DNA of 44,745 nucleotides from Thermoplasmata archaeon (GTDB lineage Archaea; Thermoplasmatota; Thermoplasmata; Lutacidiplasmatales; UBA184), in assembly GCA_022750455.1 (NCBI GenBank), contig JAKIVR010000013.1, forward strand, positions 1-44,745, in the 5' to 3' direction. How positions within the stretch are numbered: position 1 is the first letter of the stretch; each line of letters starts with the position of its first letter. Below the pieces are notes generated by a model that had not been told where the DNA came from, did no database searches, and saw only the letters and a program-made list of their open reading frames with translations. Below are positions 3,936-23,201 of the stretch, one piece after another. Made by a program: the position numbers and the translations under genes.

Positions 3936-5975
3936 GTGCGGCGCTCCGTGCCGTCAAGCCAGGAAGGACGCCGAGCCCTCATCACGGGGTTCACGGGTCA
4001 GGACGGGAGCTATCTCGCCGAGCAACTCCTCGAGAAGGGGTACCAGGTCTACGGTCTCGTCCGCCGCCTCTCCACCCCCAATACCCGGAACATCGCCCAC
4101 CTCCACGATCGGGTGACGTTCCTCGATGGAGACCTCCACGATGCGGCGTCGCTCGACACGGCCATGCGCGCGGCCGAGCCGGACGAGATCTACAATCTGG
4201 CGGCCCAGAGTTTCGTGGGGGCCTCGTTCAACCAGCCCGTCGTGACGGGGGAGGTCACCGGGTTGGGCGCGCTCCGGATGCTCGAGGCGATGCGCTCCCA
4301 CGCCGACAAGGCCCGCTTCTATCAGGCGGCGTCGAGCGAGATGTTCGGAAAGGTTGCGAGCTCGCCACAGGACGAAGCCACACCGTTCCATCCACGCAGC
4401 CCGTACGGGGTTGCCAAGGCGTACGCGTTCTGGGCGTGCGTGAATTACCGAGAGAGCTATGGGATGTATGTTTCGAATGGGATCCTTTTCAATCACGAGT
4501 GCGTGACCCGGGAGACCCCAGTGATCATTCGCGATCCGTCCGGGTTCGTTGATTGTCTTCCCATCGCCGACGTCCTGCCGGATCCCGGGCATCTCCGCCA
4601 GGCTCCGCTGTCGTTTGATGTCTGGGATAACGGAGGATTCACCCGGGCCAGTCTAGGTACGGCGAATTGGAACGGCCCGCAGTCGGATCGGGCAGTGCAT
4701 CGAATCGTGGCCCGTTGTGGCGAGATCCGTGCCACGGCGAATCACAAGCTAATGCGCTCGGACGGATCGGAGATCTCGGCCGAATCGGTCACCCCGGGAG
4801 AGCGCTTGCTCCGGACTCGACTTCCGCCGGCGCCCGGCCGAACCAAATTGACTGCCCAGTTTTCCCGTCTCTTGGGGCTCCTCGCCGCCGAAGGAAGTGT
4901 CACCTCCGAGGAGCACCCTGTCGTCACGTTCCGGAATAACGAGAAGCGACTCCTCGACGACGTCCAGAAACTATGGGAGCAGGTGGCGGGAGGGACCGTG
5001 GCAGACTTTCCCGGAGTCTCCGGATTCACGGGGGAGCCTACCGGTGGCCTCCGGCTCAACGGAAGTCCGACGTTCGCGTCGTACCTCCGGACGATCCTCT
5101 ACACCAAGCAGAGTCAGAAGCGCGTGCCGCACATCGTGCTCAACTCGGACGAGGCGGCATGGCGGGCATTCCTGTCGGGGTACAACGAGGGAGACGGGCT
5201 CCGAGCCGGACACGGGAGGCGCGAATTCAAAAATTTCAAGACGTCGTCCCCTACACTGGGTGCCGGCTTGTGGTGGATGGCCTCCATTACGCTCCCGCAG
5301 AAGCTCACCTTGAACGTGGATTTCGTTCGGCGGGGCCCCCTCCAGGATCAGCTGTATTGGTACTACTCCATCAACTTGGGGTCCGACGCGGTGAGAGCCA
5401 AGACGAGTCATCTCGCCCGGCTGTCCGACGAGGTCAAGCTGGTGGCGCCCGATCGGTACATCGGCTGGGTCTATGACATCGCGACGGCCTCGGGCACGTT
5501 CCATGCGGGGATTGGCGACTTGGTCATCCACAATTCTCCCCGTCGTGGCCACGAGTTCGTGACGCGGAAAATCTCCGACGCCGTCGCCAAGATCTCCCTC
5601 GGTCGTGCGAAGACCGTGCGCCTCGGGACCCTCACCACCCGGCGGGATTGGGGGTACGCGCCGGAGTACTGCGACTTCATGTACCGCGTGTTGCAAGCTC
5701 CGCGCGCGGACGACTTCGTAGGAGCGACAGGGGAGACGCACTCCGTCGAGGAGTTCGTCACCGAGGCGTTCCGGTGCGTGGGGATCACCGACTGGAAGCC
5801 GCATGTCGTCATGGACCCGAAATTTGCGCGGCCGGCAGAGGTGGACACGCTGCTCGGGAACGCCCGGAAATCGAAGGAACAGTTGGGGTGGGAGCCGAAG
5901 GTCCGGTTCCTCGAGCTCGTGAAGATCATGGTCGAGAACGACCTGCAGCTGATCCGAGCCACTCCGTCGGTGTGA
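3936..5975 (+). CDS. gmd: GDP-mannose 4,6-dehydratase precursor interrupted in frame by an intein; spliced product about 334 aa
   Basis: N-extein ALITGFTGQDGSYLAEQLLEKGYQVYGLVRR...GILFNHE; C-extein SPRRGHEFVTRKISDAVAKISLG...RDWGYAPEYCDFMY. Joined, they restore the conserved Gmd motif GILFNHESPRRG. GTG start with upstream gggagga. Confidence 0.93.
   Translation: MRRSVPSSQEGRRALITGFTGQDGSYLAEQLLEKGYQVYGLVRRLSTPNTRNIAHLHDRVTFLDGDLHDAASLDTAMRAAEPDEIYNLAAQSFVGASFNQPVVTGEVTGLGALRMLEAMRSHADKARFYQAASSEMFGKVASSPQDEATPFHPRSPYGVAKAYAFWACVNYRESYGMYVSNGILFNHECVTRETPVIIRDPSGFVDCLPIADVLPDPGHLRQAPLSFDVWDNGGFTRASLGTANWNGPQSDRAVHRIVARCGEIRATANHKLMRSDGSEISAESVTPGERLLRTRLPPAPGRTKLTAQFSRLLGLLAAEGSVTSEEHPVVTFRNNEKRLLDDVQKLWEQVAGGTVADFPGVSGFTGEPTGGLRLNGSPTFASYLRTILYTKQSQKRVPHIVLNSDEAAWRAFLSGYNEGDGLRAGHGRREFKNFKTSSPTLGAGLWWMASITLPQKLTLNVDFVRRGPLQDQLYWYYSINLGSDAVRAKTSHLARLSDEVKLVAPDRYIGWVYDIATASGTFHAGIGDLVIHNSPRRGHEFVTRKISDAVAKISLGRAKTVRLGTLTTRRDWGYAPEYCDFMYRVLQAPRADDFVGATGETHSVEEFVTEAFRCVGITDWKPHVVMDPKFARPAEVDTLLGNARKSKEQLGWEPKVRFLELVKIMVENDLQLIRATPSV
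4500..5534 (+). other. Intein (345 aa) with LAGLIDADG homing endonuclease domain, in Gmd
   Basis: Starts Cys1 (CVTRETPVIIRD); block B-like ATANHKLMRSDG; two LAGLIDADG-like motifs LLGLLAAEG (about 4872) and FLSGYNEGDG (about 5169); C-terminal block WVYDIATASGTFHAGIGDLVIHN; +1 residue Ser. Boundaries are in frame (188 codons N-extein). Confidence 0.93.
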
Positions 5976-11225: not shown

Positions 11226-13934
11226 TCAGCGGATCCGTTCGAGGGCGAGCGAGCCCAAGACCAAGGACGTGGTCGTCGCCCGGTACTCGATGCGTTGCCG
11301 GTAGACGAGATCGCCCATCCCCCGAACGGAAAGCCAGGTCCGACCCGCGTCGGACTCGAAGAGGATCGCGCCGTCGACCCGGTTCAGCAGCTGTTCGACC
11401 CGTTTCGGCGGGACCGTGGCGGGATCGATGCCCGAAACCGTCGTCGCGTGGTGCGTTTTGAGGAGCGAGACGAGATTGTTGACGAACTCGAACGCGTCGG
11501 CGTCCTCCCCGTGCGCCAGGCAGGCCGAGAGATGGGTGAACGCCACGCGGACGGGCGTCGGCGTCGTTTCGGCGCGGGGGTCGACGAGCGCGCTCGCGAT
11601 CGTCGAGAGCAGGCCAGCGAAGTCGCCCGGGCCCTTCACGACATAGTGGTGGCCGTCGTCGCCACCGGCGGACGTCGGGGTCCCCGTCGGGTTCGTGGCG
11701 TCCACCCAAGTGACCCGACCAGTCTGTTCGTACTCCTTGAACTGGGGCAGGATCAGGCCCATCTCCGAAGCGAGTTCCACGGGCGTCCGCGCGGTCGTCA
11801 CCACGACGACCCGTTCCCCGCGGCGCAGACCATCGGCGAGGAACGAGTTCACCGCCACCTCGCGGCCGAGGAACGGAGCGCCCAGCAGCAACACGTGGCC
11901 GTTCGCGGGATAGCCGCCTTGCAGCACGTCATCGAGACGGGGGATCCCGGACGGAACCCGGGAGATCTTTCGTCCACCGGGGATCCGTTGGATCGACGGG
12001 GTCGAGGCAGGGGAAGTCGGAGGGAGCGGTGGGAAAGCGGCGTCGGTCGGGGGAGCCATCCAAGGCACCGGTTCTTCGCTGGTCCCTTCGTCCCGGTCCC
12101 GCAAGGAGGCGGGCAGGCCGATCAACGTGGTGCCGGCGTCCTCGCTGCGTTGCCGTTCGAGTGTGACCTCGGCGGCCCGGGCATCGAGGATCTTCTCGCG
12201 CTCCGCGGCGCGGCGTTCTCGTCCGGTCAGCTCCGCCTGCGACGACATCAGCTCCTCCTGACGCTGGCGGAGCGCACTCTCCCGCGCCGCAACGAGCGCC
12301 TCCTTCCGACGCGTCTCTTCCGCCCGAGCCTCCAGCTCGGCGGCCCGACGGGTGACCGCGCTTTGATCGGCCGTGGCCGCGGTCGCCTGGGCCTCCCATT
12401 CCCGTTTCCGATTCTCGAACAGTTGTCGCTCGGTGGTGCTGTCAGATTCGCGCTTTTGCGTCTGGGTCTCCCGAGCGGCGAGCGCCTGTCCGCGCTGTTG
12501 GAGCTCCAACGATTGGCGTTGGACCGCTTGCGCCCTCGAGTCCAGCTCGACCGCCCGGCGCTGGAGCGCCGACCCCTGGGCGTCGAGTGCCTCCTTCATG
12601 GCGACCGCTTGGTGGTTGGCCACGAGCGCTTCGGCAGGCGTGGCCGACGAGGCGGCGGCGGTCGTTCCCTGCGCCTCGCGCAAGGCCACTCGGTCCTCTC
12701 GCTGACGAACCTCGGCCTCGCGGGCCTCGGCGACCCGGAGCTGAGCCGCGGCCTGCGCCGCGACATCCGGCGCCGCCGCGGCCTCCCGTTCACGGTTCGA
12801 GAGAGACATCTCGCGCTGGAGGAGTGAGTTCTCCGCCGCGCTGACCTTCGCCTCCCGGTCCCCCCGCAGGGATTCCCAGGCACGGAGATCGGCGTCGCGG
12901 CGGCCGACTTCGGCCTTTTCCCGGTCGACGGTCTGTTCGCGTTGGGAAATATCCGCGAGCTGGACGGAAGCACGCTGAAGCTCCTGTCGTAATGCCGCGC
13001 CGCGCTCCTCGACGTCGCGCTCGTAGTTCTTCAATTGAGATTCGACGTCCGCGTACGCCAGTTTCTGTCGTCCGAGCGCCCGCTCGGTGCTCTCGGAGTC
13101 GGCCTCGCGGCGGATGAGCGCCGTCTCCCGGAACTGGAGCGCGTCCTCGCGCTTGCGGAGGTCATCGGCAAGCCGGAACACCCGGGCCTCGTTCGACGAC
13201 AGCAGTTCGCGCTGGTGCGCCTGGGTCCCCGTCGAGATCAGATGGAGCCACGAACCGGAGAACAGGTACAATCCGGCCGCGGCGAGCAACGTCAGGGTGA
13301 GCCCCTGCGGATTTCCCGGACTTGCGACGCTGGCGAGGGCGAGCGCCACCGGGATCGCGGCCGAACCGACTCCGATGATCTGCCGTTGGCCGAACCCGCG
13401 CCAGGTCAGCGCCATCCCGATGAGCGCGCCCGAGATCACCAGCATCTCGAGCGGGTACATCCACGGAAAGAGCGTCCAGCTGCCGGTCGGGCCGACGCCG
13501 CCGAGCGAGGCGATGTAGAGGAATGTCAGCACGCCGAAGCCGGCGACGCTAAGAACCGTGATCCAGAAGTGGGGCTCCCACGGCCAGAGTTGGTACTCCT
13601 CCCACTTGACGAACAGTCCGAAGAACGAGAGCAGCCCGCCCCCGACGAGCGGAAGCCCCGCGAACAACGCCGCGTAGAGAGCGGTCCCAGCCGACACCCC
13701 GTGCGTAGTCAAAGCCGACGGGAGCGGCTGGTTGTAGGCGACGACCACGATCCCATCGGCGAAGAGAAGCAGGTACAGGATCAAGGTGTAATACTGGGCC
13801 GTCCGGCCCAGCCGCAGCTGGAGCAGCGCGTCCTCGCGCGCGTACGTCAGGTCCCCGTCGTTCAGGAGGCTCCGCGTCCGCGGCAACGCGGACGGGGGCG
13901 AGGACGGCAGGGGCGACGAGGGATCTGGTACCAC
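11226..13934 (-). CDS. Membrane/coiled-coil protein with C-terminal KaiC (RecA)-like ATPase domain
   Basis: About 6 TM segments (13240..13830), long Q/R/E/A-rich coiled coil (about 12170..13200), then RVPSGIPRLDDVLQGGYPANGHVLLLGAPFLGREVAVNSFLADGLRRGERVVVVTTARTPVEL, resembling KaiC with a changed Walker A. Confidence 0.85.
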   Translation of the reverse strand: MVPDPSSPLPSSPPSALPRTRSLLNDGDLTYAREDALLQLRLGRTAQYYTLILYLLLFADGIVVVAYNQPLPSALTTHGVSAGTALYAALFAGLPLVGGGLLSFFGLFVKWEEYQLWPWEPHFWITVLSVAGFGVLTFLYIASLGGVGPTGSWTLFPWMYPLEMLVISGALIGMALTWRGFGQRQIIGVGSAAIPVALALASVASPGNPQGLTLTLLAAAGLYLFSGSWLHLISTGTQAHQRELLSSNEARVFRLADDLRKREDALQFRETALIRREADSESTERALGRQKLAYADVESQLKNYERDVEERGAALRQELQRASVQLADISQREQTVDREKAEVGRRDADLRAWESLRGDREAKVSAAENSLLQREMSLSNREREAAAAPDVAAQAAAQLRVAEAREAEVRQREDRVALREAQGTTAAASSATPAEALVANHQAVAMKEALDAQGSALQRRAVELDSRAQAVQRQSLELQQRGQALAARETQTQKRESDSTTERQLFENRKREWEAQATAATADQSAVTRRAAELEARAEETRRKEALVAARESALRQRQEELMSSQAELTGRERRAAEREKILDARAAEVTLERQRSEDAGTTLIGLPASLRDRDEGTSEEPVPWMAPPTDAAFPPLPPTSPASTPSIQRIPGGRKISRVPSGIPRLDDVLQGGYPANGHVLLLGAPFLGREVAVNSFLADGLRRGERVVVVTTARTPVELASEMGLILPQFKEYEQTGRVTWVDATNPTGTPTSAGGDDGHHYVVKGPGDFAGLLSTIASALVDPRAETTPTPVRVAFTHLSACLAHGEDADAFEFVNNLVSLLKTHHATTVSGIDPATVPPKRVEQLLNRVDGAILFESDAGRTWLSVRGMGDLVYRQRIEYRATTTSLVLGSLALERIR

Positions 13935-13972: not shown

Positions 13973-14944
13973 CTACTTAATCATGCCTTTGGATTGGCGA
14001 GGCGTCCGACGGGCGGCGATGAGCAGCGCCGAAGCTCTTCGGAGTCGCTCCGGTTCGCGTCCGACCGCCTCCTCCAGCTCGAGCAGATGGCTCCACGCGA
14101 CCGGATCCTGTTGGACGCCGGCCGCCCGTTCGGGATCCGCGCCAAGGCACGGGGCGACGGCGAGCCGCTCGATGACCTCGAGACGGTGGTCGGCGAGTCG
14201 GCTCTCGATCTGAGCGAGCGACCAACGTTGGAACTCACTGGGGTTCGCCTTTTCGACCGGCGCGAACGGCCGGAACGGTTGGAGGTGGACCCGCGGGTGC
14301 AGGGCGCGGACGGGCGACCGCAGGAGGCGTCTCACCGCGCCGGGAGGCAGTCGGTGAAGGTACTCCGCCCGCTCCCCGGCCCCGACGGCAAACTCCAACA
14401 CGACGATCCCGCCATCCGGAGAGGCGCATCGAACGAGCTCTTGGAGGATCGTCGACGCCCGTTCGCCGCCGAACCCTACGACGTTACCGAGAGCGACGAC
14501 CCCGGAGAACCGGTCGTCCCGGAACGGCAGACGAGTGGCGTCACCGCGGACGAATTCGGTAGGGACGGAGCGCTCCCCGGGCTCGGCGCCGTCGAGCGTC
14601 TCGGCCGCCCGGTGAAGCATGCGGTCGGAGAGGTCAAAGAGCACCCGCGGGTGGTCCCGGTCCCCGATCAAGGGGGAGAATCGTCCCGGACCCGAACCGA
14701 CCTCGAGGACCGCGCCTGGGACGGCCGGCGGGTGTCGACGGAGGAATCGTCCCCGGAGCTCTCGGAACAGATCCCGCTGTGCCGTCCCCTCGTACCTGCG
14801 CCACTCTCGCTCGACCCGGTACTCGTCCGCGGCGACGTACCGCTCCCGGGGCGAGGAAGCTTCCTCCCCCGGGTCGTACCGCAATGGCGGGAGAGCTCGA
14901 GGAGCGACCCGGCGCCGGTCACGGAGTTCCCTGAGGGCGGGCAT
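13973..14944 (-). CDS. Class I SAM-dependent methyltransferase
   Basis: VLEVGSGPGRFSPLI, RGDATRLPFRDDRFSGVVALGNVVGF, methyltransferase motif I/II/post-II arrangement. Confidence 0.82.
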   Translation of the reverse strand: MPALRELRDRRRVAPRALPPLRYDPGEEASSPRERYVAADEYRVEREWRRYEGTAQRDLFRELRGRFLRRHPPAVPGAVLEVGSGPGRFSPLIGDRDHPRVLFDLSDRMLHRAAETLDGAEPGERSVPTEFVRGDATRLPFRDDRFSGVVALGNVVGFGGERASTILQELVRCASPDGGIVVLEFAVGAGERAEYLHRLPPGAVRRLLRSPVRALHPRVHLQPFRPFAPVEKANPSEFQRWSLAQIESRLADHRLEVIERLAVAPCLGADPERAAGVQQDPVAWSHLLELEEAVGREPERLRRASALLIAARRTPRQSKGMIK

Positions 14945-16294: not shown

Positions 16295-17131
16295 GTGAAC
16301 CCGTACAAGCTTTCCGTGGCCGCCGGCCGGCCGCTCGCCTCCGGGTTCAAGATGCCCGTTCTCGGGTTGGGGGTCTACTTGGTCCCACCGGGCGCTCCCA
16401 CTCGAGACGCGGTGTCGGCGGCTCTCCAGAGTGGCTACCGACTTATCGACACGGCCAAGGGGTACCAGAACGAGGCGGACGTCGGGCAGGCGATCCGCGA
16501 CTCCGGGATCCCCCGGGACGATCTCTTCATCACCACCAAGCTGCCGAACCAAGACCACGGCTCCGAGCGCGCGCTCCGATCGCTCGAATCGAGCCGCAAC
16601 GCGCTCGGGGTCAGCTTTGTCGACCTGTACTTGATCCACTGGCCCGTTCCGGGCGTGCGGCGGGCGACGTGGAAGGCGCTGGAGAGGATGAACCGGGACG
16701 GCTCCTGCCGCGCCATCGGCGTGAGCAACTACACCGTCCGTCACCTCGAGGAGCTGATCTCGAACGCGGACATCGTCCCCGCCGTCAACCAGGTCGAGCT
16801 CCATCCGTTCCTCGCGCAACCCGAGCTGCGAGACTTCTGCCGGAAGCACCGGATCCAGGTCGAAGCGTACAGTCCCCTGATCCGGGGGGACCGGTGGAAC
16901 CACCCGACGATCCGGGACATCGCGGTCTCGCACGGCCGGACCCCCGCGCAAGTGCTGCTCCGATGGGGGATGCAGCACGACGTGGTCGAGATCCCGAAGT
17001 CGGTCCATCCCGAGCGGATCGCCGAGAACGCCGCCGTCTTCGACTTCTCTCTCTCCTCGGACGAGATGGCGCGCCTCGATTCGTTGGATGCCCGATACCA
17101 CACCTGTTGGGACCCGACCGACGAACCGTAG
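16295..17131 (+). CDS. Aldo/keto reductase
   Basis: MPVLGLGVYLV, YRLIDTAKGYQNEADVGQAIRDSG, LFITTKL, DLYLIHWPVPG, GVSNYTVRHLEEL, NQVELHPFL. GTG start with ggagg upstream. Confidence 0.93.
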   Translation: MNPYKLSVAAGRPLASGFKMPVLGLGVYLVPPGAPTRDAVSAALQSGYRLIDTAKGYQNEADVGQAIRDSGIPRDDLFITTKLPNQDHGSERALRSLESSRNALGVSFVDLYLIHWPVPGVRRATWKALERMNRDGSCRAIGVSNYTVRHLEELISNADIVPAVNQVELHPFLAQPELRDFCRKHRIQVEAYSPLIRGDRWNHPTIRDIAVSHGRTPAQVLLRWGMQHDVVEIPKSVHPERIAENAAVFDFSLSSDEMARLDSLDARYHTCWDPTDEP

Positions 17132-17163
17132 ACCCGCGGGGGGGCGACCGACCCCGAACCCGA

Positions 17164-17200
17164 TGTCAGCGACGACTGACACTAGTCTCAGCGACCAGTC
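17164..17200. promoter_or_regulatory. Cluster of overlapping palindromes (TGTCAG-N6-CTGACA; CTGAcACTAGTcTCAG)
   Basis: Perfect inverted repeat 17164..17181, near-perfect 16-bp palindrome 17176..17191, and direct repeat TCAGCGAC (17167, 17188) in the 250-bp intergenic region upstream of the giant surface gene. Confidence 0.45.
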
Positions 17201-17384
17201 TTCAAGAGCCACCTCCCCTATCGGGGAACGATGCGGGCGAGCCGGCATGCTCGGGCACTCCCACTCTCGGCCTCGCGCCGGAGGGATGCGCTCCGCGATC
17301 TATCCGGTCCGATCCCGCGGCACGGTCTTTCGGTCCCCACGAATGAGTAACCAGATTAAGGACCGCGGAGCTCGTTCGCGACCT

Positions 17385-20300
17385 ATGGGGAGAGAGACCG
17401 CCCAGGCCGGCCGTTCGGCCCCCAAGCTCTCCTTCCCGAACCGGGTCCTCCCCGCGGGCCGGATCCGGCCGCGGATGGCGGCGCTCCTGATCGCCTTCAT
17501 CGCGGTCGCGTCCGCCGCGTCCGCCGGAGTGGTCTGGGTCGCGCCCGGGCTCTCCGTCGGGACGCATCCCATTTCCACCGCCCTTCCCTCGACGGCCACC
17601 CCCGCCACGAATCCCGCGGTACCGCCGACCTCCGGGCTGCCGGGGACGAACCCTACGTCCGTGATTTCGCTCCCTCCCGACTTCCGGCCCACCGGTTTCC
17701 TGGCCCCGCCTCCCCCCTCCCCGAATTCCAATTCCACGGGCTCTTCGACACTCCCCCCGGCGACCGCTCCGGCCCCCTCGAACTCGGAGACCGGGGCCGG
17801 GATCCATCCGCTCGCTGCCCCGGGCGGCGTCACCGTCACGGGCACCGTCCTCGCCCAACCACCGCCCCAGCTCCCCATCTCCGGGGCGACGGTGACGGTG
17901 GAGACCGTCGGGCAGGCGTGCACGCCAGGATGCCCGAGCGTCACGACGGGCGACACCGGCACGTTCACCGTGGCGAACGTGGATCCCGGCACGATCCTCG
18001 TGACGGTCCAGGCGGGCGACAACCTGACGAACTACACGACGCTCTTCGGGGTCACGGCGGGCTCCGTGTCGGCCGGGACCATCTATCTCGTCCCGGACGC
18101 GATCGTCTCCGGGTGCATCAAAGGCGCCGACCCGACGCATGAGGCGGTCTCGGGCGTGGCGATCTCGGGGGTCACGCGGGACGGCTCGCTCCAAGCCGTG
18201 CCCGACTTCTTCTCCGGTTCGAACGGATGTTTCAACACGCCCGGCGTCGCCGTCCCTCCCGGTCCGTCGGTGATCGACTTCACGCCGCCCGAAGGCTCGG
18301 AGTATCTGAAGAACGACACCTACGTCGACCTCGCCCCCGGCCAGCACTTCCGACTTCCGTACACCGTCTACCTGTCGGTCGGCGTCACCGTCAGCGTGAA
18401 CTTGTGGGACTCCGTCAGCAAGCGACAGATCACGGGCGGGCAGGGGTACGTCGCCCTCACCGTCACGAGCCGGTCCACCGGGGTCTCCTTCGGGCAAGGC
18501 GAAGCGGTGCCGATCGGAGAGACCCCGTCGGCGTACGCCCCGCCCGGGAACGACACGTTGACCGTCGACATGGACGGCTTCTTGGAGAACTCCAGCCCCG
18601 TGAGCGTGCCGACCCTCCCTCCCGGGCACACCGTCCGGTTAGGCACCGTCTGGCTCGTCCCGGATGGGGCGATCTCGAGTTCGACGGGATTCACGTGGCC
18701 GACCGCCGTGAAACAGTCGGACTGGTACGGGGATGTCGGGCTGGTCGTCGTGACCGTCTGCAGCCTCGACGGCTTCCTTCCCGCCTACAGCATCTCCTCC
18801 GACTACAACGGGGTCACGATGACCTCGAGCACCTGCTTGACGAGCTGCCAACCCGAAGGCGCCTCGTTCGAGGTCAACGCCCCGCCTCTCCGCACGCGGA
18901 TCGCGATCGCCCCCGACCAGGGGACGTGCCAACCGGGGGACCCGACGTGGCCGACGAATCTGATGTTCCCGGTCGTCGGCAACGACAGCTTCGCCAACGT
19001 AACCGCGGGCAGCGCCACGACGGTGCCGGCGATCGACTTCACGCCGGGCACGTACGTCGAGGGGATGGTGGAGCCCGGGAACAACTGGACGATCACCGCC
19101 TGCTCGACCGATGAGGTCTCGATCTGCATGCCGTCGTCCGGACCGATCAACACCCGGGGGCTCGATGGGCCGTGCACGGACGGGGACCAAGGGAGCCTCG
19201 GCTACTGTCCGTACGATCCCGAGCACTGCCCGGAACCGTCGACCGCCCATGCCGGGGAGACGTTCTGCATGGCCGTCCCCCCCGGGCCGGACCAGTTCTC
19301 CGTCTCCTCGCTCGATCAAGGGGACAACATCACCTGGGCCGAGATCGCTCCCGGCTCGTTCGGCGGTCCCCTCCAGCTTTCGGCGGTGTCGTCGAACCAC
19401 ATCACGTCGATCAACCTCTCCGCCGGCCAAGGCGAGGTCTCCGGGGTCCTCGAGGACTCCGTCACCGGCCTTCCGATCCCGAACTGGTTCACCCCGCACG
19501 TCTCCGCCTCCCCGGCCGGCCAGCTTCCCTGGGGCGGGGGGACGGGATTCGCCTCGAACGGCTTCTTCAACGTCTCCGTGACGAGCGGTTGGCTGTCGAT
19601 CGTCGGGACGGCATCGGACTACCTCAGCAACGGGACCTGGGTGTTCATCAACAACAGCGGCTCTATGGTCCCTCTCGGGACGGTGAACCTCACGCCGGTC
19701 GCCTGGGTCCAAGGGCAGATCTTCGACGCGAACGGGACCCCGATCGTCTACGCCGACGTGCAGACGTGCGACATCGACCTGACCAACTGCCAACCGGTGC
19801 TCAGCAACGGGATCACGGGGACCTCCGGCCAGTACTCCGCCAAGGTCGCGGCCGGGCGCGGGACGGTCGGCACGTACCTCGTGGAGGCGAGCGCTCCCGG
19901 CTACATCACGAACTTCACGTGGATCAATGTCACCGATCCCGGCGGCGTCTACACGGTACCGCCGATCAACCTGACCCCGTTCCTCTCTGTGCACACCCGC
20001 GGGCTGCAGCCCGCCGGAGGCTCGACGCCCGCGCCGGACCCGTACGAGTACTTGGTCGGGACGATCCTCGACAACACCTCCGGGCTCGGCGTGCCGCTCG
20101 CGACGATCGCTCTGACCCCGGTCGGAGGGGGCTTTTCGAGCAATCTCGCCGGCTCGATCACGGACGGGGGTGACTTCAACTACACCGTGACGACGGGACA
20201 GTTCTGGGCGAACATCACGGCCCCGAACTACTACCCGCAGAGCTTCTTCGTGAACATCAGCGGGCTGATCCCGCAGCTGAGCCTGGGGACCGTACTTCTG

Positions 20301-23201
20301 GAACCGTTCACCGGATACGTCACGGGCCAACTCTCCATCGCCCCGTGGGCGTCGATCACGTCCACGGATGGCGTCGGTCCGGGCGCCGTGCAGATCTCCG
20401 TCTGTCTCGCGGCGGCGACCTCGGTCTGCGGGGTCGGCTCCGCCGATGTGAGCGGCTTCTTCAACGTCAGCGCCCCGTGGGGATACCACGACTCGGTGTA
20501 CATCAGCCCTGACGGCGGAGTGCCAGGCGGGGTCGGTTCGGCGCCGTTCGGGTTCCTCAACGCCACGTCGAACGCGAACGTGGTGAACGCCTCGAACCGG
20601 ACGTTCGTCCGGACCGGCTTGACGATCTTCGGCGTCATCACCGGGGACGTCCGCGACGACAGCACTGCGAACACGACCCCAGTCCGCTACGGTTCGTTCT
20701 CTCTCGCCACTCTCAGCAATCGGACCGGGGTGCCCGCCGGGGCCTCGGAGACGTTGACCGGCGGCGGCGGCTTCACGGTCTTCGTCCCTCCGGGGAGGGT
20801 CGCGGGGGTCGCTCTGGGCAGCGCGTACGTCCCGTACAACTTCACCTCCCCCGTGAACTTGCCGAACGTCACGTCGCCCAACGTGACGACGTTCGGTCCG
20901 ATCTCCCTCCAGCACTTCGGGTGGATCACGGGCCACGTCCGCTCGTCGGTGGTGCCGCAGGGGGGATGGAACGACTGGGTGCCTGCGGCGGGCGTCTCGA
21001 CCCAGTCGTACGATCCGACTTCGCGCCTATCGCTCACCGGTCAGACGTCGTCGGACGACACGGGCTACTTCAACGTCACCGCGCCCCCGTTCCGCGGCGT
21101 GGAGCTCACCATCCTCGCGCCGGATTTCAATCAGACGGGGGCGTTCGACCTGACCGTGAATCAAAGTCGTACCCTCGTTCTCAACTCGACCTCCCTGCCG
21201 GCCGCGGTGCCGTGGGGCTGGGTCGCGGGCGACGTGATCGACCCGACCCTGCTCCGGGCCGTCGTCGGCGCGTCCCCGACGGTGGTCGACTCCGGTACCG
21301 GCACCTTGCAGTCAAAGACCGGCGTCTTCGCCTCCGAGACGGGAGAGTTCCTCACGGACGCGGTCCCGGGACCCACGGACCTCATGACGGTCCAGGCCGC
21401 CACGTTCCTGACGAACACCTCGGTCGTGAACGTCACCCCCGGCAACGTCACGACCGTCGACCCGGTCCGCTTGACCGCGACGGGGGTCGTGGCGGGGAAC
21501 GTCTTCGGTCTGCCGGCGAACATCACCCTCGGGGGCGCGCAGGTGTCGGTGTGCGGTCTCTCGAGCCCGCAGTGCTCCAACTTCACGACCACGGCGAACC
21601 AGGCCGGCGTCTTCTGGGCGTCCGCGCCGCCAGGGACGGACCGGATCAACGCCTCGTTCGCGAACTACGCGCCGAACGTCTCCATCGTCGTCACGGTCGC
21701 CCCCGACTCGTGGCAGTGGGTCGGGTCGGTCCTGCTCTCCGAGTACGCGACCCTGACCGGGACGATCCTCGGGCTTCCGAGCGGATTGCCGGTGGTCCAT
21801 GCGAACGCGAGCCTCTGTTCGGCGGTCGTCTTCCCCGGAGAGCCGACCGGGCCGTGCGGGCTGACGGTGGAGTCGGACGCGGTCGGGGGCTTCACCATGA
21901 GCGTCCCCGCTGGCACGTACATCCTGGCGTTGGACGCCGGAGGATACGCTCCCACGTATCTGCCGATCTCGATCCGCCCCGGCGAGCAGGTGAATCTCGG
22001 GACGTTCCTCCTCGAGCAGGACGGCGTCCTGCAAGGGTTCGTCGTGGGATCTGACACGGATTCGCCGGTCGTCGGCACCCAGGTGTTCGGTTGCTCCACG
22101 CAGGGAGATGGGGGCTGCACCGGAACGGTGGGGACCAACTCGACCGGAGGATTCTCCGTGGACGCGATGCCCGGGCTGTACGTGCTGACCGCCACCGCCC
22201 CCGGCTACCAGGACTCCGATCTTCCCGTCCGGGCGCAGAGCGGGGCCACCACGATCGTCGGATTGATCCTCCTCGTTCCCGTCGGTTCGAACCAGCTGTT
22301 TGCCGTCTCGGGAACGATCGTCGGCTCGAACAGCTCGGCGCCGATCGCTGGCGCGACGGTGATCAGTGCCGGGGGGTACGCGTCCCAGCCGAGCGCCTCG
22401 GACGGGGCGTTCACGATCTACGTTCCCTGGGGCACCTACGACTTGGTCGCCCGCGCGGCCGGCTACGACGCGGCCTCGCTGACCGTGGCCGTCCATGACA
22501 ATGTGACGGGGATCGATTTCTCGCTCTACCCATCGGCGTTCACCCTCTCCGGGGAGGTCCGGGACGGATTGACGAACGACGTGCTGGATGGGGTCGAGCT
22601 CCAGCTGACCCTCACCCAGAGCGCGCTCGCCTCGACCGACGCCGATGGCCATTACGCCGTCCTGTTGTCGAACGGGACGTACGCCGTGACCGTCCTCTCC
22701 CCCGAAGGAGCAGTATATGAACCTCTAGCCTTTGTCGTAACTATCAACGGAGCGAACGTACAACGGAACGTGACGCTGTTTCCCCCGTCGACCTCGATCG
22801 ACGCGCTCACCGTCGACGCCAGCAGCGGTCTGCCGGTCGCCAACGCGACGGTCACTTTCGGCGGAACGACCTCGACCGGGATCCCGTGGACGACGACGCT
22901 CCACAGCACCCCGTTGGGAACGATCTCCCTGACGATCTACGCGGGCACCTACGTCGTCCAGGTGAACGCGTCGGGCTTCACGGGCCTCAATCAGGACCTC
23001 GTGCCGCACGGCGCGAGCCAGCAGATCATCCTCACGCTCACCCCTACGGCGCCCACGCTCCCCGCGACGACCAGTACTCCGTCCCCCCCCGCGGGCGATG
23101 CGGAGTGGGCGTACGGCGCGGCGATCGCGATCGCCGCCATCGCCCTCGGAGGCATCTTCCTCGCGACCCGTCGCTCTCCTCGGAAGGGAGGCGCGGCGTG
23201 A
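17385..23201 (+). CDS. Giant secreted/surface protein with many carboxypeptidase-regulatory/Ig-like repeats and C-terminal TM anchor
   Basis: N-terminal hydrophobic segment MAALLIAFIAVASAASAGVVWV; repeated G.V.D..t..PV.gA.V..........t...G.F.......G.y.l...A.gY motifs; many N-X-S/T sequons; C-terminus EWAYGAAIAIAAIALGGIFLATRRSPRKGGAA. Track start 17088 probably too far upstream; ATG 17385 preferred. Confidence 0.85.
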   Translation: MGRETAQAGRSAPKLSFPNRVLPAGRIRPRMAALLIAFIAVASAASAGVVWVAPGLSVGTHPISTALPSTATPATNPAVPPTSGLPGTNPTSVISLPPDFRPTGFLAPPPPSPNSNSTGSSTLPPATAPAPSNSETGAGIHPLAAPGGVTVTGTVLAQPPPQLPISGATVTVETVGQACTPGCPSVTTGDTGTFTVANVDPGTILVTVQAGDNLTNYTTLFGVTAGSVSAGTIYLVPDAIVSGCIKGADPTHEAVSGVAISGVTRDGSLQAVPDFFSGSNGCFNTPGVAVPPGPSVIDFTPPEGSEYLKNDTYVDLAPGQHFRLPYTVYLSVGVTVSVNLWDSVSKRQITGGQGYVALTVTSRSTGVSFGQGEAVPIGETPSAYAPPGNDTLTVDMDGFLENSSPVSVPTLPPGHTVRLGTVWLVPDGAISSSTGFTWPTAVKQSDWYGDVGLVVVTVCSLDGFLPAYSISSDYNGVTMTSSTCLTSCQPEGASFEVNAPPLRTRIAIAPDQGTCQPGDPTWPTNLMFPVVGNDSFANVTAGSATTVPAIDFTPGTYVEGMVEPGNNWTITACSTDEVSICMPSSGPINTRGLDGPCTDGDQGSLGYCPYDPEHCPEPSTAHAGETFCMAVPPGPDQFSVSSLDQGDNITWAEIAPGSFGGPLQLSAVSSNHITSINLSAGQGEVSGVLEDSVTGLPIPNWFTPHVSASPAGQLPWGGGTGFASNGFFNVSVTSGWLSIVGTASDYLSNGTWVFINNSGSMVPLGTVNLTPVAWVQGQIFDANGTPIVYADVQTCDIDLTNCQPVLSNGITGTSGQYSAKVAAGRGTVGTYLVEASAPGYITNFTWINVTDPGGVYTVPPINLTPFLSVHTRGLQPAGGSTPAPDPYEYLVGTILDNTSGLGVPLATIALTPVGGGFSSNLAGSITDGGDFNYTVTTGQFWANITAPNYYPQSFFVNISGLIPQLSLGTVLLEPFTGYVTGQLSIAPWASITSTDGVGPGAVQISVCLAAATSVCGVGSADVSGFFNVSAPWGYHDSVYISPDGGVPGGVGSAPFGFLNATSNANVVNASNRTFVRTGLTIFGVITGDVRDDSTANTTPVRYGSFSLATLSNRTGVPAGASETLTGGGGFTVFVPPGRVAGVALGSAYVPYNFTSPVNLPNVTSPNVTTFGPISLQHFGWITGHVRSSVVPQGGWNDWVPAAGVSTQSYDPTSRLSLTGQTSSDDTGYFNVTAPPFRGVELTILAPDFNQTGAFDLTVNQSRTLVLNSTSLPAAVPWGWVAGDVIDPTLLRAVVGASPTVVDSGTGTLQSKTGVFASETGEFLTDAVPGPTDLMTVQAATFLTNTSVVNVTPGNVTTVDPVRLTATGVVAGNVFGLPANITLGGAQVSVCGLSSPQCSNFTTTANQAGVFWASAPPGTDRINASFANYAPNVSIVVTVAPDSWQWVGSVLLSEYATLTGTILGLPSGLPVVHANASLCSAVVFPGEPTGPCGLTVESDAVGGFTMSVPAGTYILALDAGGYAPTYLPISIRPGEQVNLGTFLLEQDGVLQGFVVGSDTDSPVVGTQVFGCSTQGDGGCTGTVGTNSTGGFSVDAMPGLYVLTATAPGYQDSDLPVRAQSGATTIVGLILLVPVGSNQLFAVSGTIVGSNSSAPIAGATVISAGGYASQPSASDGAFTIYVPWGTYDLVARAAGYDAASLTVAVHDNVTGIDFSLYPSAFTLSGEVRDGLTNDVLDGVELQLTLTQSALASTDADGHYAVLLSNGTYAVTVLSPEGAVYEPLAFVVTINGANVQRNVTLFPPSTSIDALTVDASSGLPVANATVTFGGTTSTGIPWTTTLHSTPLGTISLTIYAGTYVVQVNASGFTGLNQDLVPHGASQQIILTLTPTAPTLPATTSTPSPPAGDAEWAYGAAIAIAAIALGGIFLATRRSPRKGGAA

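Follow-up and report, generated by a model that had tools for sequence, protein, structure and literature searches.

We find that a gene of a Thermoplasmata archaeon encodes, in one chain of 902 residues, a six-helix membrane domain, a long coiled coil and a KaiC-fold head from which the residues of ATP hydrolysis have been lost. Proteins of this architecture (six transmembrane helices, coiled coil and pseudo-KaiC domain), which we call type A, form one clade within a wider pseudo-KaiC family; the catalytic loss extends throughout the clade, a methyltransferase gene is the usual partner in the order of the source organism, and sister proteins are encoded beside pilus genes. That this anatomy belongs to a non-hydrolysing adaptor we regard as very probable. 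The whole statement, that type A proteins are membrane-anchored pseudo-ATPase scaffolds or adaptors of a membrane machine, we put forward with moderate confidence. The window, by which we mean the entire stretch of DNA analysed, spans 44,745 nucleotides, and its source genome comprises 2.16 Mb in 129 contigs (93% complete).

Layout of the type A protein

The gene lies on the minus strand, with a GTG start at 13934, a stop codon at 11226-11228 and a Shine-Dalgarno-like GAGGT upstream of the GTG. An initial annotation, made from the sequence, had placed a 902-residue protein at 11226-13934, with coordinates and length that proved right and no strand given. Full-length type A orthologues (29-43% identity) keep the reading frame and the invariant residues; the open reading frame therefore represents a real, conserved gene.

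The N-terminal membrane domain occupies residues 26-235 (13230-13859, minus strand) and consists of an amphipathic start and six long helices ahead of the coiled coil, as modelled by AF2 on 75 sequences (pLDDT 89.4, pTM 0.83). The earlier estimate of about six transmembrane helices thus agrees with the model, while hydropathy shows four strong peaks in the window protein and five or six in most orthologues. Because there are six helices, both ends of the protein lie on the same side of the membrane. The charged loops between the helices, KWEEYQLWPWE and TWRGFGQRQ, suggest by the positive-inside rule that this side is probably the cytoplasm, for the N terminus as well as for the coiled coil and head. 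Seven residues of the membrane domain (L40, K110, H122, F123, W178, G227 and H231) are invariant among type A orthologues. The domain matched no Pfam family, giving scattered chance matches with few members, and its best match among PDB structures in Foldseek had an E-value of 0.06 and a TM score of 0.30. A sequence-profile search of the PDB returned a single match, to a designed coiled-coil chain (E 0.0014), which we did not find convincing as a relative.

Residues 240-600 (12135-13217, minus strand), rich in Ala, Arg, Glu, Gln and Leu, form the coiled coil. Heptad periodicity is strong over these ~360 residues: the hydropathy power at a period of 7.06 is 195, where shuffled sequences have a 95th percentile of 80, and so is not a product of chance. 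Orthologues share its RExxL heptad-like pattern. If the segment were one continuous helix, the rod could be up to ~50 nm long. A Pro/Ser-rich linker, recognised from sequence, follows at residues 601-655 (11970-12134, minus strand); the coiled coil of about 350 residues and the Pro-rich linker first noted here are thus both borne out.

The KaiC-like domain, residues 657-902 (11229-11966, minus strand), was delimited from PF06745, the AF2 model, PDB entry 2dr3 and an alignment of 78 sequences, and it ends in the family signature GSLALERIR. These C-terminal 246 residues score 47.2 bits against Pfam PF06745 (KaiC; cut-off 26.6, E 2e-12), the model adopts the KaiC fold (pLDDT 92.4, pTM 0.90), and its best solved match in Foldseek is PH0284 (2dr3; E 2e-14, TM score 0.73). 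By both fold and family score the head belongs to the KaiC/RecA-fold superfamily, where the initial annotation had placed it. The closest solved folds, PH0284, SSO2452 (2w0m) and PH0186 (2zts), are stand-alone archaeal KaiC-like ATPases; unlike type A, they are single soluble domains that carry neither a transmembrane domain nor a coiled coil.

Loss of catalytic residues in the head

The Walker A segment does read GAPFLGREV (residues 685-693; 11856-11882, minus strand), as had been pointed out. Active KaiC-like ATPases have GxxGxGK[ST] at this place, whereas the window protein has GAPFLGRE and its family GxxFxGKE. Likewise, the Walker B Asp and the catalytic Glu pair are missing from the window head, where the corresponding segments read RVAFTHLS and VTTARTP. 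All 78 aligned type A domains conform to GxxFx(G/E)(K/R)E: the fourth Walker A position is Phe and the Ser/Thr position is Glu in every one of them. The Walker B column contains no Asp in any of them, and all lack the KaiC Glu pair, the place of which aligns with A715-R716. The P-loop Lys, by contrast, is kept in 77 of the 78, with Arg in the window protein only. Because the P-loop Ser/Thr, the Walker B Asp and the catalytic Glu pair are all missing, ATP hydrolysis by the type A head appears, as judged from these residues, very unlikely, in line with the suggestion that the protein was probably ATPase-dead. The accompanying view that it was an unusual version holds in part: the Thr-to-Glu change has gone to fixation throughout type A, so the protein is no lone oddity, while the Lys-to-Arg change is peculiar to it.

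Among 41 sister domains compared, there is no Thr and a single Ser at the Walker A Ser/Thr place, the fourth position is always Phe, His or Tyr instead of Gly, and the Walker B Asp survives in only five (four Poseidoniia-like and one other). The simplest order of loss would have Ser/Thr disappear before Walker B, and the Lys after both, in the window protein alone. In the tree the window domain has a branch of 0.87, against 0.37 and 0.61 for the two nearest rows. Sequencing error was considered as the cause of the Lys-to-Arg change and set aside: the codon, CGC, is at least two changes away from AAA or AAG. We take the replacement, seen in one genome only, to be real, pending confirmation.

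A head of this kind might still act as a nucleotide-binding, non-hydrolysing switch, its Lys and Glu binding nucleotide or phosphate and thereby controlling ring assembly, with the Arg of the window protein perhaps locking it in one state. The near-universal Lys and the universal Glu would suit such a switch, and the archaellum protein ArlH offers the precedent of ATP binding without shown hydrolysis (PMC12024892). Against it, an aromatic residue or His replaces the P-loop Gly everywhere, Ser/Thr and the Walker B Asp are gone from type A domains, and the window protein has lost even the Lys on its long branch. We consider the switch unlikely.

Two other kinds of KaiC protein invite comparison. 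The cyanobacterial circadian KaiC has two tandem active domains, whereas the window protein has a single domain with its catalytic motifs lost. Inactivated KaiC domains are known as iKaiC, a term that reportedly goes back to Makarova et al. 2017. Such domains occur in archaeal signalling proteins (PMC5847659, in the parts of the paper available to us), and the window protein answers to the description of an iKaiC in having the KaiC fold, degraded catalytic motifs and fusion to other modules. The fusion partners named in those parts of the paper are REC or HalOD1 (PMC5847659); type A has instead six transmembrane helices, a long coiled coil and the GxxFxGKE signature.

Descent and distribution

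Type A is common in the family of the window (Lutacidiplasmatales-like soil archaea), most genomes of which have a full-length orthologue; beyond it, such orthologues occur in one or two further families of the class. Of 390 genomes drawn from across the phylum, 21 matched a profile of the membrane domain, all from the window's family, f5 and f16. A search of genome contigs yielded 80 loci that were kept, labelled Thermoplasmata, Thermoplasmatota or Euryarchaeota apart from one labelled 'bacterium'; the named relatives, Candidatus Lutacidiplasma silvani among them, are Thermoplasmata MAGs. Beyond the phylum, the search consisted of this genome-contig scan and one scan of viral contigs, and the latter gave no relative that would point to a viral origin.

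Sister proteins that lack transmembrane helices, either coiled coil plus pseudo-KaiC or the domain alone, are present across Thermoplasmatota. Those with a long coiled coil and a pseudo-KaiC domain, here type B, are mostly about 550-860 residues long; one is a second gene of the source genome (C42:43945-45447), and others occur in the majority of the remaining families in the class. The forms of family f19 measure about 240-320 residues, and the small genomes of f28 and f51, which we take to be Poseidoniia, encode single pseudo-KaiC domains of about 240 residues. Type A domains form one clade (support 100/98) nested within the pseudo-KaiC family tree, near the f19 forms (95/88) and type B, and thus share common ancestry with the Thermoplasmatota pseudo-KaiC family; because the outgroup branches are long, the deepest branching order is unsure. 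As to the taxonomic spread that the initial annotation had wished to see checked, type A is a single clade in Thermoplasmata and at the same time one of several architectures in a phylum-wide family.

Three genomes of the window's own family (G014, G034 and G036; loci L080, L168 and L079, respectively) encode the six-helix domain and coiled coil with no KaiC domain, and no significant KaiC remnants were found downstream of these versions. Since membrane domain and coiled coil persist there, the head is dispensable in these genomes. Such losses, with the long coiled coil and the missing catalytic residues, would also be expected of a structural, cytoskeleton-like or polar scaffold for the membrane or for cell shape, in which the KaiC fold is a protein-binding relic; the KaiC-like protein CirA of Haloferax, which affects cell shape and motility (PMC13286277), may be an analogous case. 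Yet the retention of the P-loop Lys in all type A domains but one, together with many invariant positions, exceeds the needs of a relic, and we think this scaffold rather improbable. A separate locus (L166 4767-6869, minus strand) encodes a partial relative of the membrane domain, joined through a Pro-rich linker to a KaiC domain that is fully degenerate; a long coiled coil is absent.

A methyltransferase gene as partner

Directly upstream of the type A gene, on the same strand and across a gap of 38 bp, lies a gene for a class I SAM-dependent methyltransferase of 323 residues (13973-14944, minus strand; PF13649, E 4e-13). The same immediate, same-strand arrangement recurs in 47 of 53 type A loci of the window's own order, with gaps mostly of about 20-70 bp, and the methyltransferase still precedes the KaiC-less versions in L079 and L080. 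Outside the own order it was found upstream of type A in none of 19 loci. It matches no CheR-type family. Fusion of the methyltransferase into the long reading frames of L096, L113 and L122 was looked for and not found.

This partnership raises a further alternative, a transmembrane sensor whose six helices would detect a signal, whose coiled coil would transmit it and whose pseudo-KaiC head would relay it to soluble partners, while methylation of the coiled coil by the methyltransferase sets adaptation in a loosely chemoreceptor-like manner. The invariant membrane residues do suggest more than a passive anchor, and the persistence of the upstream gene beside even a KaiC-less version is consistent with such a scheme. 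However, neither Pfam nor fold comparison revealed a known sensor or receptor domain, there is almost no extracytoplasmic mass, and the methyltransferase is both missing upstream at the 19 loci outside the own order and unmatched to any CheR-type family. On this evidence a sensor is rather unlikely.

The neighbours of the window gene are the methyltransferase and a dienelactone hydrolase, and it does not lie in an archaellum operon. We judge the Nudix-, triosephosphate-isomerase- and PurT-like neighbours in the own order, and the ribosomal and SecY-like neighbours of type A in other families, to be positional rather than functional. In four loci outside the own order (L139, L142, L149 and L151) type A stands beside a conserved block of ribosomal-like, SecY-like, DUF106-like and Cbf5/TruB-like genes, named by eye from sequence.

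Pilus linkage of the sister proteins

No pilus genes were found near type A in the window or in any orthologue locus examined, and a pilus role of type A would follow from its sister proteins, with some relatives contradicting a strict link. In several Thermoplasmata families (L059, L180, L181, L186 and L188) sister genes adjoin a run of DUF7289-like, T2SSE, T2SSF, T2SSF and second T2SSE genes. A Poseidoniia-like operon has the order T2SSE, T2SSF, T2SSF, Roadblock, a fusion of KaiC and Ras GTPase, and pseudo-KaiC (L173 6166-12703; L174 184-7054), and its last three genes, encoding a Roadblock/LC7 protein, a KaiC-like protein fused to a Ras/Arf-type small GTPase and a stand-alone pseudo-KaiC, also occur together in L172 (5060-7252) and L175 (5183-7402). 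We take the Roadblock and KaiC-Ras GTPase genes to resemble the bacterial MglA/MglB polarity pair. The source genome itself carries two type-IV-pilus-like clusters off the window's contig: one on contig 97 with two ATPases and a split platform (L200), and one on contig 13 (L201 6210-12321) with a single ATPase (T2SSE, two T2SSF) and its own degenerate KaiC-like gene of 209 residues.

Among 44 genomes, which were chosen rather than drawn at random and come in part from related, non-independent families, 21 have both a pseudo-KaiC and a strong T2SSE match, one has pseudo-KaiC only, six have T2SSE only and 16 have neither (Fisher p 5e-6). Both are absent from lineage f8 and part of f19. In 7 of the 21 genomes the two genes lie within about 10 kb of each other (binomial p about 5e-6 to 5e-5, for an assumed chance of 3.5-5% per genome). 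The link between pseudo-KaiC and pili is not strict, because G004, of the same genus as the window, has types A and B and no T2SSE match, and five genomes of the own family (G014, G027, G032, G034 and G036) have T2SSE and no strong pseudo-KaiC match.

A 2016 report already placed KaiC-family ATPases in the vicinity of archaeal pilus loci (PMC4858521). The pilus of Cuniculiplasma divulgatum, CdiP, has two ATPases and a split platform (PMC12448462), a layout that recurs in L181 and L200. Unlike the clusters of the sister proteins, its machinery is described there, in the accessible parts, with no KaiC-like component (PMC12448462). A conserved gene of about 140-180 residues accompanies type B on the opposite strand, usually as its direct neighbour, in L057, L059, L060, L061, L064, L180, L181, L186 and L188; the one member scanned had no Pfam or NCBIfam match.

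A proposed tethered adaptor

A precedent for the non-hydrolysing adaptor that we favour is ArlH (FlaH), which shares with the type A head the KaiC fold and a divergent Walker B (Foldseek match 4yds, E 4e-13). ArlH is a KaiC homologue that binds ATP, has never been shown to hydrolyse it, and docks under the ATPase ArlI (PMC12024892). It acts together with a T2SSE-family ATPase, no hydrolysis having been shown for ArlH itself, and may by analogy illustrate what such an adaptor does. Type A differs from ArlH, which retains Walker-type ATP binding, autophosphorylates, is soluble and belongs to the archaellum operon; the window protein scores 15.6 bits against the NCBIfam FlaH cut-off of 194, and ArlH is not among the matches listed. 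For the membrane tether, ArlX can be compared in the way it works rather than in sequence, having one transmembrane helix against six in type A, and we know of no KaiC domain in it. ArlX forms a ring around ArlH and ArlI (PMC12024892).

We propose that the six-helix domain of type A sits in the cytoplasmic membrane and that the coiled coil would oligomerise, holding the KaiC-fold head in the cytoplasm off the membrane. There the non-hydrolysing head may serve as a docking or ring-forming module and would work as ArlH does in docking on the archaellum ATPase inside the ArlX ring, tether and head being combined in one chain. The scaffold or cell-organisation role suggested by the initial annotation is plausible, its leads being the type-IV-pilus linkage of the sisters and the methyltransferase partner gene. 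Archaellum genes are reportedly missing from Lutacidiplasmatales (PMC9287336), and for this reason any motor served by type A would be of pilus type. A type-IV-pilus-type motor as the partner of the window protein is a tentative and rather unlikely identification; the partner may instead be a different membrane complex or a polarity complex. We give little credence to the most specific version, a one-chain, ArlX- and ArlH-like ring that would position or gate a type-IV-pilus motor or a roadblock/Ras-like GTPase polarity complex and be tuned by the dedicated methyltransferase.

The mode of action of archaeal KaiC-like proteins is an open question in the field, as are whether members without catalytic activity take a genuine part in signalling and by what means pili and motors are positioned and switched in archaea. 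The pseudo-KaiC family is a testable case, with a catalytic loss fixed across the class, a new conserved membrane domain, a methyltransferase partner gene and pilus-linked sisters, which in marine-type relatives share their loci with genes for a roadblock protein and a fusion of KaiC and Ras GTPase. In the open literature searched, which did not extend to Makarova et al. 2017, we found no description of the six-helix domain, its coiled-coil fusion to the head, the GxxFxGKE signature or the methyltransferase partnership.

Other genes in the window

Two further genes on the plus strand deserve mention. A GDP-mannose dehydratase-like enzyme (3936-5975) matches its family in two segments that flank a LAGLIDADG_3 match, and the gene probably carries an intein. 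A protein of 2037 residues (17088-23201), with about ten CarboxypepD_reg repeats and a PEGA domain, is probably a large surface protein.
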